Shown here: piece by piece, positions 59,847-64,000 of the stretch | Numbering within the stretch: position 1 is the stretch's first letter | Layout: every line of letters starts with the position of its first letter | Assembly: GCA_036504735.1 (NCBI GenBank) | Contig: DASXUQ010000005.1 | Coordinates: 837,377 to 901,376 of the forward strand | Source: a bacterium | Lineage (GTDB): Bacteria > Electryoneota > RPQS01 | DNA length: 64,000 nt | Direction: 5' to 3' | Program-made: the position numbers and the translations under genes | Notes under the pieces: model-generated | What the model saw: only the letters and a program-made list of their open reading frames with translations | The model's database searches: none | What the model was told of the DNA's origin: nothing

Positions 59847-61565
59847 TCAGGAGACTGCCAGATCAATCGGCGCGAAGGCGTCCACGTCGATCAGACCAAG
59901 GTCGGTGAGCTTGAGATGGGGGATTACAGGCAGGGCAAGAAACGACAGCGCCATGAATGGCGCGGAGAGCGAACATCCCAATTCCCGCGCGGCGCGGTGC
60001 AGATTTTCCACGGCCTGAACCACATCCGGCGCACTCTGGTCCGACATCAATCCTGCCAGCGGCAAAGGCAAATGGGCCAGCACCTTTTCTCCTGCAACCA
60101 CCACCCAGCCCCCCCCCTGCTCGCCCAGCACCTGCGCGGCACAGAGCATATCCGCATCGCTCATACCCGCGCAAATCAGATTATGAGAATCGTGCGCCAC
60201 CGTCGAGGCCAGCGCGCCATGCTTCAGCCCCAGACCGCGCACAAATCCTTTGCCGATGTTTCCGGTGCGGCGGTGACGCTCGATCACCACCAACTTGGCA
60301 ATATCTTGTCCCACATCCGCCTGCCATTGCCCATTGCGTACGGGAAGCAGCGCCGCAGAACGTCCGGTGACGATCTGATCCGGAATAATGTCAATGATAT
60401 TCGTCTGCCCTTCCTGCGAAGGAACGGCCAAATCAGCGCCGGACAGCGACGGCAGCCTCACCGTGCCCAGCACCGCACTCGCATCGGCAACCGGAACATC
60501 GGCAAGCAGCGCGCCATTTGACGCAATCAATTTTCCATCGCGCCATACTTTCGCGGCGCGGAAAGATACCAGATCTTCGAAGGCCGCAAGATTCGCGCGG
60601 CGGCCCGGTGTGATGGCCCCGATCGCTTTCAATCCGAAAATCGCCGCCGTGTGCGACGTCGCCATCGCCAATGCAAGAACCGGATCAAGCCCCTGCGCCA
60701 CCGCCTTCGCCAGCGTGGCATTCATGTGGCCTTCACTGACCAGATCGTCCGCGTGGCGGTCATCGGAAACAAACGCGAAGCGGTGCGCATTGGCGGGAGT
60801 GACCAGCGGCAGCAACGCTTCGAGATTGCGCGCCGTGGAGCCTTCGCGGATGAACACCGCGATGCCGCGCCGCAACTTCTCCTGAGCTTCCGCGAAGGTC
60901 GTGCTCTCATGATCGGTTCCGATCCCCGCGGCCGCATAAGCGTTCAACCATTTGCCGCTCACCGCGGGAGCATGCCCATCCACCGGACGGCCATCGGCCA
61001 GAGCGATCTTGCGCAGCACCGCCTCGGCGCCGAACACCACGCCGGGGAAATTCATCACTTCAGCAAGTCCAAGCACACGGGGATGGGAGAGAAACGGCCG
61101 CAGCCGCTCGGCATCCAGATCCGCGCCCGACGTCTCCATATGCGTCGCCGGAACACAGGAGGGCAGCATCACGAACACATCCAGCGGCACAGAATCGGTC
61201 GCGTCCAGCATGTAGCGGATACCCGCTTCGCCGCACACGTTAGCGATTTCATGCGGGTCGCACACCACCGCGCCGGTCCCCCGTGGGACTACGGCGCGGG
61301 TGAATTCGGACGGTGAGAGCAGGCTGGACTCAATGTGAATATGACCGTCGATCAGCGACGGCGCAAGAAAAAGGCCCTCAAGATCGATGATCTCGCGGGC
61401 CTCATAGTCGCCGATACCTGCGATCAGGCCGTCGAAGACGGCCACGCTGCGCTCCTCAATCTCATAGGACAGCGTGTTCACCACGCGGCCATTGATCAGC
61501 AGGAGGTCCGCCGGCCGGTCTCCCCGCGCAACGGCCAAAAGTGATTGCAGACGCGGAATATTCAT
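59847..61565 (-). CDS. ade: Adenine deaminase
   Basis: A 572-residue amidohydrolase converting adenine to hypoxanthine. Metal-binding motifs are PSLIDGHIHIESSLLSPSEF near residue 70 and VCDPHEIANVCGEAGI near 103; FVSDDRHADDLVSEGHMN lies near 264 and VAHDSHNLICAG near 463, as in Ade proteins. Length is normal for the family (about 550-590). It begins three bases after the MCE/MlaD gene, so it is the last gene of the hprK-PTS cluster. Confidence 0.93.
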   Translation of the reverse strand: MNIPRLQSLLAVARGDRPADLLLINGRVVNTLSYEIEERSVAVFDGLIAGIGDYEAREIIDLEGLFLAPSLIDGHIHIESSLLSPSEFTRAVVPRGTGAVVCDPHEIANVCGEAGIRYMLDATDSVPLDVFVMLPSCVPATHMETSGADLDAERLRPFLSHPRVLGLAEVMNFPGVVFGAEAVLRKIALADGRPVDGHAPAVSGKWLNAYAAAGIGTDHESTTFAEAQEKLRRGIAVFIREGSTARNLEALLPLVTPANAHRFAFVSDDRHADDLVSEGHMNATLAKAVAQGLDPVLALAMATSHTAAIFGLKAIGAITPGRRANLAAFEDLVSFRAAKVWRDGKLIASNGALLADVPVADASAVLGTVRLPSLSGADLAVPSQEGQTNIIDIIPDQIVTGRSAALLPVRNGQWQADVGQDIAKLVVIERHRRTGNIGKGFVRGLGLKHGALASTVAHDSHNLICAGMSDADMLCAAQVLGEQGGGWVVVAGEKVLAHLPLPLAGLMSDQSAPDVVQAVENLHRAARELGCSLSAPFMALSFLALPVIPHLKLTDLGLIDVDAFAPIDLAVS

Positions 61566-61568
61566 AGT

Positions 61569-62462
61569 CTAAAAAAGAACGATCCGCTGTTTCATACCTT
61601 TGGTCCGGATGGAGACGGCCAGAGAGTCAATCTGCTCCAGCGTCCGGTTCAACCGCACGTACAGAGAACTGTCGGTAAGCACCTTGCCGAGGGTGCCTTG
61701 ACCCTCGTTCAACAGGCGCAACGTCTGCGTCGCGGACTGAGTCAGATGCGCCATCTGCGCCGTAACGGAATCCACACCGCCGAGAGTTCCGTTCAGACGG
61801 GCGGCGGCATTCTGCGAGAGTGACTTGACCGCGACCAGCGTGCTTTCCGCTTGTGTCACGGTGTTGGTCAGACGCTCGCGATTCTGCATCAGCCACTCGT
61901 TGGACGTACGCGCAATTTCACTCGCATTGTTCACCAGCGTGGTCACACCCTTGCGCGTCACGGTGTCCGCCGCCACACGATTCAGGTTCACCAGCAAGGT
62001 ATCCAAGTCACGCAGCGACGTCTGCACGTCGTTGGCAATGTCCTGAAACACGTGCACCGCTTCGGTCATGCCCACAGGATTGTCGCCGTTCAGGGGCATG
62101 GTGATATCCGCCGGCGGAAGTTTGGATCCCGGCAGCAGCGACAGCGCCTTGCCCGCCATGACCGTCGGGGACTCGACCGTAACGTGATAGTCCGAAAACA
62201 GCGTGACGCTCTTGTCTATGGCGGCATCCACAAACACTTTGCCGCCGGACAGGCTGATGCGCGTGACCTTACCCTTTACCACGCCGTTGGCCAGCACGTT
62301 GGCGCCGTTTTCGAGGCCGCCCACGTTATCGAACACGACTTGAATGTGATAGCGGGAGGACCGCAGGCGGTAGCCCTTGCCCCACATAATCCCGCCGATC
62401 AGAAAGACGATGGAAATGATGACGGCAATACCGACACGAATCTCATTTTTTCTTGGATCCAT
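61569..62462 (-). CDS. MCE/MlaD-family lipid-transport protein
   Basis: A 297-residue protein with an N-terminal TM anchor (about 10-28, VGIAVIISIVFLIGGIMWG) and one MCE domain (about 38-118, YHIQVVFDNVGGLENGANVLANGVVKGKVTRISL ... SLLPGSKLPPADI). The C-terminal 170 residues are helical, with heptad-like repeats suggesting a periplasmic tube or coiled-coil. MlaD proteins bind phospholipids and work with an MlaF ATPase and MlaE permease; neither is in this window. The gene is tightly linked to EIIB upstream (3 bases) and ade downstream (3 bases). Confidence 0.87.
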   Translation of the reverse strand: MDPRKNEIRVGIAVIISIVFLIGGIMWGKGYRLRSSRYHIQVVFDNVGGLENGANVLANGVVKGKVTRISLSGGKVFVDAAIDKSVTLFSDYHVTVESPTVMAGKALSLLPGSKLPPADITMPLNGDNPVGMTEAVHVFQDIANDVQTSLRDLDTLLVNLNRVAADTVTRKGVTTLVNNASEIARTSNEWLMQNRERLTNTVTQAESTLVAVKSLSQNAAARLNGTLGGVDSVTAQMAHLTQSATQTLRLLNEGQGTLGKVLTDSSLYVRLNRTLEQIDSLAVSIRTKGMKQRIVLF

Positions 62463-62465
62463 GCT

Positions 62466-62966
62466 CTACTCCTCGTAGGGTATGGGTTTCGTCGCGGGCA
62501 GATCCTGGCATTTGATCTTCACCCCGAGGTGGCGAAGTTCCTGCAGCGTCGTACGATCCCACTCCGATAAATAAATGTAAGACAGCACCTCTTCCCGCCC
62601 TTCGCGGAAATGCAGGCCGCCCAGAATAAGCTCTCTAAGAGGTACACCCAGACGCACCAGTTTCAGCGCGTCCACCGGAGTTTCCAGCACCAGCATCGCC
62701 CGCGTATTTTTGAAATCTCCGCGCTGCCAGCGCTGCGCCGCGTCGGCCAGGGAAATCACGTCGCCACGCTGCTCTTCGGGAATGAGCAGGCGGAAGGTCT
62801 GCGACAGGGTCCGGTCGCGGCTGACACGGTCGGAAACGAGCAAAACGGGACAGAGTTGCAGCGTCTGTCCCCAGCCAACGATGACCTGTCCATGCAGCAG
62901 GCGGTCATCGATACGCACAAGAGGAAAAACTAACTTGTCTTTCCTCCGAAGAAGATTTAAGCTCAT
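62466..62966 (-). CDS. PTS mannose-type EIIB component
   Basis: A 166-residue cytoplasmic protein with the EIIB active site RIDDRLLHGQVIVGWG, phosphorylated on H25, and the family segment LVLETPVDALKLVRLGVPLRELILGGLHFREGR. EIIB passes phosphate from EIIA to a sugar on EIIC/EIID. No EIIC or EIID genes occur in this window, so a regulatory role is possible. It overlaps EIIA by four bases. Confidence 0.9.
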   Translation of the reverse strand: MSLNLLRRKDKLVFPLVRIDDRLLHGQVIVGWGQTLQLCPVLLVSDRVSRDRTLSQTFRLLIPEEQRGDVISLADAAQRWQRGDFKNTRAMLVLETPVDALKLVRLGVPLRELILGGLHFREGREEVLSYIYLSEWDRTTLQELRHLGVKIKCQDLPATKPIPYEE

Positions 62967-63337
62967 GAAGAAATCCGTTGAATTCCGCGATGGGCGTCCG
63001 ATTCCACCATAGTCACCAGTTCGCTAAAGGCGAGCTGTTCGCGCTTGGTAAAAAAGGAAAACAGCATCGGCATGTTCACTCCCGAAATGATCGCGCATTC
63101 CGGATGAACCTGCTGAAGCGTTTTGCACGCGACGTAAGGTGAGCCACCACAGAAATCGACAAAGAAAATGAGGGGGCCGCCGCTCAGAGTCGATTGAACG
63201 GCGTGGATGATTTGATCGAGGGAAAGACCCTCATTGGACAGGACTTGCACGTCCGCCTGCGGCCCGAGCACGCCCTGCACGGTCGCCAGGAGTACCGCGC
63301 CCAGCGTACCGTGCGTCAGAATAACCGCACGAACCAT
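62963..63337 (-). CDS. PTS mannose-type EIIA component
   Basis: A 124-residue EIIA of the mannose family. Active-site H9 lies in AVILTHGTLGAVLLATVQ, and FVDFCGGSPYVACKTL near residue 60 corresponds to the family D-L-x-G-G-S-P motif. It would accept phosphate from HPr and pass it to EIIB. It starts 11 bases after hprK and overlaps EIIB. Confidence 0.9.
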   Translation of the reverse strand: MVRAVILTHGTLGAVLLATVQGVLGPQADVQVLSNEGLSLDQIIHAVQSTLSGGPLIFFVDFCGGSPYVACKTLQQVHPECAIISGVNMPMLFSFFTKREQLAFSELVTMVESDAHRGIQRISS

Positions 63338-63348
63338 GCGCGTTCCTC

Positions 63349-64000
63349 CTACTCGAAGTCTTTTTCCAGATAGGATTCAAGCTGGGTTTTCACACGCATC
63401 GCATCGGTCAGGGCTTCGCCGAATTGCTTGGCCGGATGAAACCCGTAGACTTTCAGATGCAGATTGAGGGCAATCGTTTCCGCCAGCACCGTAATGTTCT
63501 TGCCGGGAAAGATCGGCAGACGTACGTAAGGGATTTTGACTCCGAGATATTCCTTGAACTCGTCGTCAATCCCGGTGCGGTCGTAGTCCTGCTCCCCGCT
63601 CCAGTCCACCAGTTCCACTTCGGTTTCCACCCGCTTCTGCAGGCGAACCGCGCGCACGCCGAACATCCGGCCCACGTCGATGATGCCGATGCCGCGGATC
63701 TCCATGAAGTGCTTGAGCAGTTCCGAGCCGTGGCCCATGATCACGTTGTCCGCGGTGCGCGTCACCGTCACCACGTCATCGGAAACCAGGCGGTGGCCGC
63801 GTTCCACCAGATCCAGCGCCACTTCGGACTTGCCGATGCCGCTGCGCCCCGTGAAGAGCAGACCCGTGCCGTACACGTCCACAAGGGATCCGTGGACGGT
63901 CAGCGTCGGCGCGAACTTATGATCGAGGTAATCGGAAAGAAGGTGCGTCAGCTCGGTCGTCGTCAGCGGTGACGAAAAGATCGAGACGTCGGCCAGATCG
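63349..64000 (-). CDS. hprK: HPr kinase/phosphorylase (C-terminal part, runs off the window)
   Basis: At least 217 residues, with the 5' end beyond the right edge; no start is visible and the frame is open to 64000. The partial N-terminal domain ends FSSPLTTTELTHLLSDYLDHKFAPT, then the catalytic domain starts with VHGSLVDVYGTGLLFTGRSGIGKSEVALDLVERGHRLVSDD, containing Walker A GRSGIGKS and the HprK-specific RGHRLVSDD. MEIRGIGIIDVGRMFG and VKIPYVRLPIFPGKN are the later signatures. HprK phosphorylates and dephosphorylates Ser46 of HPr. It heads the cluster with EIIA and EIIB. Confidence 0.93.
   Translation of the reverse strand, partial: DLADVSIFSSPLTTTELTHLLSDYLDHKFAPTLTVHGSLVDVYGTGLLFTGRSGIGKSEVALDLVERGHRLVSDDVVTVTRTADNVIMGHGSELLKHFMEIRGIGIIDVGRMFGVRAVRLQKRVETEVELVDWSGEQDYDRTGIDDEFKEYLGVKIPYVRLPIFPGKNITVLAETIALNLHLKVYGFHPAKQFGEALTDAMRVKTQLESYLEKDFE

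Follow-up and report, generated by a model that had tools for sequence, protein, structure and literature searches.

Gene content and conservation of the operon

The window analysed here, 64,000 nucleotides of bacterial DNA (G000:C5:837377-901376, from an assembly of 4.16 Mb in 19 contigs), ends within a run of genes, hprK-EIIA-EIIB-MCE-ade, in which subunits of a mannose-family phosphotransferase system (PTS) stand beside a gene for an MCE-domain protein. All five genes lay head to tail on the minus strand, with gaps of 11, −4, 3 and 3 bases:

63349..64000, minus strand: hprK, HPr(Ser) kinase/phosphorylase, C-terminal part in the window (PF07475 Hpr_kinase_C, 207 bits; cut-off 33)
62963..63337, minus strand: EIIA of the mannose family (PF03610 EIIA-man, 49 bits; cut-off 21)
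62466..62966, minus strand: EIIB of the mannose/sorbose family (PF03830 PTSIIB_sorb, 124 bits; cut-off 27)
61569..62462, minus strand: gene of an MCE-domain (MlaD-like) protein (PF02470 MlaD, 51 bits; cut-off 25)
59847..61565, minus strand: ade, adenine deaminase, at the end of the run (Pfam Adenine_deam_C and Amidohydro_1; TIGR01178)

The content and gaps given by an earlier, sequence-only reading of this DNA were exact by these coordinates, and Pfam confirmed every gene. The window edge cut hprK, whose start lay 338 bases outside. The full gene (L002:4726-5715) encoded 329 amino acids with both PF02603 and PF07475, and scored 350 bits against the HPr kinase equivalog TIGR00679 (cut-off 240). 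Furthermore, ade passed its NCBIfam equivalog cut-off (TIGR01178, 592 bits versus 472.5), and the EIIB matched the solved EIIB chains 1ble, 1vsq and 1nrz in a phmmer search. Upstream of hprK, at a distance of 11 bases, stood hpf, then xer, topA and others, and the run comprised at least hpf-hprK-EIIA-EIIB-MCE-ade. The genes hisS, sfsA, miaB and LapA/LapB-like genes lay downstream of ade. The tRNA and Rfam searches of the window returned no match, and the promoter and terminator scan of the operon stretch gave matches below the shuffle expectation, none of them above the shuffles.

The conservation of the run was studied in 41 genomes (this genome and 40 relatives), whose flanks were covered only as far as each contig reached. 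EIIB was present in 22 of them. MCE directly followed EIIB in 17 of the 22, including all 11 genomes of the family of the window (f1), both of f2, both of f7 and two of the six of f5, and the identity of the linked MCE proteins dropped to 26-30% in the most distant relatives. The linkage of the PTS genes with MCE is old and is spread across four families. Moreover, ade followed MCE in 10 of the 11 f1 genomes (the exception was G001), so the linkage of the mlaD-like gene with ade was not unique to this assembly. In the other 11 EIIB-bearing genomes, the stretches that could be read downstream of EIIB or MCE (1.1-1.5 kb on that side in G028 and G033) showed no ade. Thus ade is a family-level addition, which would have joined the operon later and in f1 only.

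It might be argued that MCE and ade are merely the next genes downstream, sharing neither expression nor function with the PTS genes. The restriction of ade to f1 would fit such an explanation, as would the situation in E. coli, in which mla, hpf and PTS genes adjoin without forming one operon. However, the 3-base gaps on a single strand, the outcome of the promoter and terminator scan, and the retention of the MCE adjacency across four families all speak against chance neighbours, and we regard this explanation as unlikely. The genes hprK-EIIA-EIIB-MCE-ade form a real, conserved and tight operon; a single operon had been called almost certain in the sequence-only reading.

In five f1 genomes, G001, G002, G005, G008 and G010, a gene for a sigma-54-dependent activator was observed on the hisS side of ade or MCE, either ahead of hisS or where the contig terminates on that side (L033:5104-6435, L032:6815-8173, L041:11679-13055, and also L036 and L039); the window had none at this place.

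The two loci of a probable mannose-family PTS

The window contained no EIIC or EIID gene, as had been noticed before, and their only matches in the genome were on another contig, C10. HPr (PF00381), EIIC (PF03609) and EIID (PF03613) gave one match each, all on C10. PF02896 gave two, of which one was EI on C10, identified by its equivalog-domain score, and the other a 932-codon frame on C5. EIIC, EIID, HPr and EI were found together at C10:251015-254466, in the order polyprenyl synthase-EIIC-EIID-HPr-EI-phosphoglucose/phosphomannose isomerase-like gene-sugar nucleotidyltransferase-like gene; the synthase and the isomerase-like and nucleotidyltransferase-like genes scored below the NCBIfam cut-offs of their best-matching families. 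The best matches of the EIIC and EIID profiles were solved mannose PTS chains (7dyr_Y, 2.6e-14, and 6k1h_Z, 5e-35).

The two-locus arrangement recurred among relatives. EIIC and EIID were both present in 16 of the 22 EIIB-bearing genomes (all 13 of the order of the window, two of f7 and one outgroup), and each of the 13 searched genomes of the order held EIIB, EIIC, EIID and HPr. The loci read had two layouts, topA-xer-hpf-hprK-EIIA-EIIB and synthase-EIIC-EIID-HPr-EI; hpf was not found in G024 by tblastn. In addition, a plasmid search returned only EIIB matches, with less than 60% identity. The two-locus split is the rule in the lineage of this genome.

The residues expected to carry the phosphate were conserved. 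Every one of the 17 aligned EIIA rows had His9, and every one of the 20 EIIB rows had His25, which lies within R-x-D-D-R-L-x-H-G-Q. GLHxRPA (the His15 motif) and the serine of KSI (the Ser46 motif) were kept throughout the 26 HPr rows printed, which came from 24 genomes, two of them represented twice; the HPr residues carry their usual numbers. The phosphate of phosphoenolpyruvate would pass from EI to HPr (His15), EIIA (His9) and EIIB (His25), and then to a sugar taken up through EIIC/EIID, while HprK would act on Ser46 of HPr to tune this transfer. The resulting sugar phosphate would be handed on to the two enzymes whose genes come after EI, the isomerase and the sugar-nucleotide enzyme. Both the phosphate flow and the sugar uptake are what we infer for the split system.

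The most likely explanation is therefore a mannose-family PTS split over two loci and predicted to work, because all 13 genomes searched in the order hold both halves. Several results weigh against it. EIIA reached 60.3 of 98.35 bits and EIIB 95.4 of 163.6, both below the NCBIfam cut-offs of the named sugar PTS subunits, and EIIC and EIID were diverged, with an EIID identity of 29-49% within the family. The substrate, and even transport itself, therefore remain predicted.

The sequence-only reading had suggested an incomplete, regulatory PTS, and had expected EIIC/EIID just beyond the edge if it were a normal sugar PTS. The absence of EIIC and EIID from both the window and the flanks of the operon is compatible with incompleteness, and a sister family, f5, does look so (see below). 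However, this very genome has one copy each of EIIC, EIID, HPr and EI at C10:251-254.5 kb, which contradicts an incomplete PTS there, and EIIC, EIID and HPr occur in every other searched genome of the order; an incomplete regulatory PTS in this organism is highly improbable. The observation that the sequence-only reading had named as a refutation, complete EIIC/EIID genes, was thus made in spirit, but at a distant place and not at the edge. Past the right edge, where that reading proposed to look for HPr, EI, EIIC/EIID, MlaE or MlaF, none was present. EIIC/EIID or MlaE/MlaF directly beyond the edge was ruled out, since hpf, xer, topA and others occupy that place, and the two mlaE-mlaF pairs of the genome lie elsewhere. 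The case shows how the edge of a window can make a split system look incomplete.

Compared with known systems, the split PTS resembled the mannose-family (Man/Sor) PTS, such as that of E. coli (6k1h, 7dyr), in its EIIA, EIIB, EIIC and EIID domains, in the phospho-histidines of EIIA and EIIB and in having EI and HPr in the genome. It differed from the E. coli system in that EIIA/EIIB and EIIC/EIID were on different contigs, EIIA and EIIB fell below the NCBIfam cut-offs, hprK joined EIIA/EIIB, and HPr-EI joined EIIC/EIID. An excerpt of PMC2937029 describes alphaproteobacteria such as Brucella with hprK beside EIIA-Man and a regulatory PTS without permeases. The serine-phosphorylated phosphocarrier covered in that excerpt is a likeness to the present system, whereas the genome of the window possessed EIIC and EIID; f5 came closer to the Brucella type as described there, yet kept EIIB (PMC2937029).

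The MCE protein and its probable distant mlaE-mlaF partner

According to Pfam, the family alignment and a structural model, the MCE protein had an N-terminal membrane helix, one MCE domain and a long helical C-terminal part. The AlphaFold2 model had a predicted local distance difference test score (pLDDT) of 59 and a predicted template modelling score (pTM) of 0.35; the MCE domain reached about 75-89 and the remainder was poor. At this low confidence, the model showed one membrane helix, the MCE domain and long helices, without a C-terminal barrel. The protein scored below the NCBIfam cut-off for the E. coli-type MlaD (52 of 135 bits). An excerpt of PMC10665443 describes Mla systems that consist of MlaEFD alone, with a long MlaD, as widespread and ancestral. 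The present protein resembled the long-helical type covered there in its MCE domain, N-terminal membrane helix and elongated helical C-terminus, and MlaE and MlaF were also encoded in its genome, but its gene stood apart from mlaE-mlaF, inside a PTS operon (PMC10665443).

Two MCE and two MlaE matches were found in this genome. On C9, mlaE, mlaF and mlaD were together. At C5:532.9 kb, mlaE-mlaF lay between a PD40/peptidase-MA gene and mraZ-mraW, and no MCE gene was present around it within the 18 kb read. In each of the other 10 f1 genomes and both f2 genomes, MlaE occurred exactly once and belonged to this second type; the sequence read around it showed no MCE gene. Across the 22 EIIB-bearing genomes, the linked MCE gene and the MCE-less mlaE-mlaF type co-occurred in 17 of 17, and the remaining five had neither (Fisher p 3.8e-5). 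Among these five, G024, G027, G030 and G033 had an MCE match after mlaE-mlaF, and in G039, a genome 59% complete, MlaE was absent.

The MCE protein of the window is probably the MlaD subunit of the distant MlaEF at C5:532.9 kb, a pairing that we infer because the linkage and the MCE-less mlaE-mlaF type coincide across genomes. MCE, MlaE and MlaF would form a phospholipid transporter of the ATP-binding cassette type, with mlaE-mlaF alone at a third site. The following points weigh against the pairing. The genomes are related, so the co-occurrence is phylogenetically non-independent, and f5 alone gave 2/2 versus 0/4 (p 0.067). The MCE-less type was also present in the EIIB-less G016, G017, G022, G031 and G034 (L110, L104, L093, L099 and L107, respectively). 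Moreover, the contig of G004 ended inside mlaF, where an adjacent MCE gene is possible, and that of G009 about 0.7 kb after mlaF. In addition, the full MCE-gene search covered the genome of the window only, and the other genomes may have more such genes.

Taking both parts together, the window quite probably encodes the soluble components of an ordinary two-site mannose-family sugar PTS, and the MCE gene the detached MlaD of the third-site mlaE-mlaF, as is predicted from gene content, order and conservation. The position of MCE in the PTS operon most likely goes back to a long-standing grouping of growth and envelope genes that stayed together for common expression. Annotation from gene neighbourhood would misread such an arrangement, which is worth knowing: an MlaD-type subunit lies apart from its probable MlaE and MlaF and, over much of the phylum, remains part of a PTS operon.

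Two genes near the MCE-less mlaE-mlaF were observed in addition. A 1061-amino-acid protein with a peptidase-MA domain and a PD40 propeller (L084:5529-8714) adjoined this pair in most of the relatives read and is a possible envelope partner. An open reading frame of 107 amino acids (L084:12137-12460) between mraZ and mraW was conserved in several relatives; it looked STAS-like by eye and had no Pfam match.

Possible control of lipid transport and the relay of a sister family

The sequence-only reading had suggested that the phosphorylation state of the PTS might control envelope lipid transport or purine metabolism. In the direct form of lipid control, the state of EIIA/EIIB (or HPr) would control the MCE lipid transporter, sugar supply would thereby govern how phospholipids move to the outer membrane, EIIC/EIID would serve uptake, and the operon would exist for this control. 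The adjacency of EIIB and MCE across the EIIB-bearing genomes, the synteny reported above, held down to an MCE identity of about 26-30% while the genes after MCE varied, which favours the idea. However, the topA-xer-hpf-hprK-EIIA-EIIB run was equally conserved and did not single out MCE. In four of the six f5 genomes EIIB had no MCE neighbour, and the mlaE-mlaF type occurred in five genomes without EIIB. MCE domains are periplasmic and EIIB is cytoplasmic, so any contact would need MlaE or MlaF. Such control of lipid transport by the PTS may exist, with positional support only, and we regard it as unlikely that the operon exists for it.

The stretch murA-ibaG-mlaBCDEF-yrbG-kdsDC-lptCAB-rpoN-hpf-ptsN-rapZ-npr of E. 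coli K-12 likewise brings hpf, PTS phosphorelay and mla genes into proximity. It differed from the present operon in having EIIA-Ntr and NPr in place of EIIA/EIIB-Man, in having no hprK within it, and in that its mla genes formed a unit of their own on the opposite strand. Since E. coli keeps mla, hpf and PTS genes close too, proximity alone is no proof of control. Among open-licence papers, nothing was found on MlaD with a phosphotransferase system and HPr kinase, on a phosphotransferase system in Calditrichota, or on a MlaD/hpf/ptsN/lptB neighbourhood, and searches on orphan MCE with phosphotransferase and on deltaproteobacterial EIIB/HprK gave no pertinent paper. The main text of the Electryoneota paper PMC10439189 did not contain PTS, phosphotransferase or mannose, and the PTS-Ntr review PMC13104625 did not contain mla, lpt or hpf.

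A different arrangement was observed in f5, in which six genomes bore EIIB (G015, G020, which is Ca. Electryonea clarkiae, G024, G027, G030 and G033; 86-94% complete; EIIB loci L048, L030, L046, L047, L049 and L029, HPr loci L186-L191). NCBI places G020 in the phylum Ca. Electryoneota, and since G020 was listed in the same phylum as the window, this is probably the phylum of the window too. HPr, HprK, EIIA and EIIB were present in all six f5 genomes, with the histidines of EIIA and EIIB kept, and EI was found in five of the six HPr loci, not within the stretch of G020. EIIC and EIID gave no match at E 0.001 in these six genomes, although diverged copies below detection are possible. In G020 and G027 the synthase directly adjoined HPr, with no EIIC/EIID-sized gene in between. 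Thus f5 seems to have a permease-less EIIA-EIIB relay, which is absent from the genome of the window. Since f5 keeps the relay to EIIB without a detectable permease, EIIB would have some other use in that family.

The relay of f5, two of whose six genomes keep the MCE neighbour, lends some weight to direct coupling. By extension, EIIB of this phylum, phosphorylated or free, might act on MlaEF-MCE beside or instead of sugar uptake, and f5 would be the stripped-down regulatory form; this is quite unlikely in our view, and if true, carbon supply would set the lipid traffic of the outer membrane. The preferred reading of the window, an ordinary two-site sugar PTS with a detached MlaD, applies to its own genome, and f5 is the kind of incomplete PTS proposed in the sequence-only reading, but in other organisms. 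An EIIA-EIIB relay without a detectable permease is an arrangement worth knowing, and it was the most interesting side result of this analysis.

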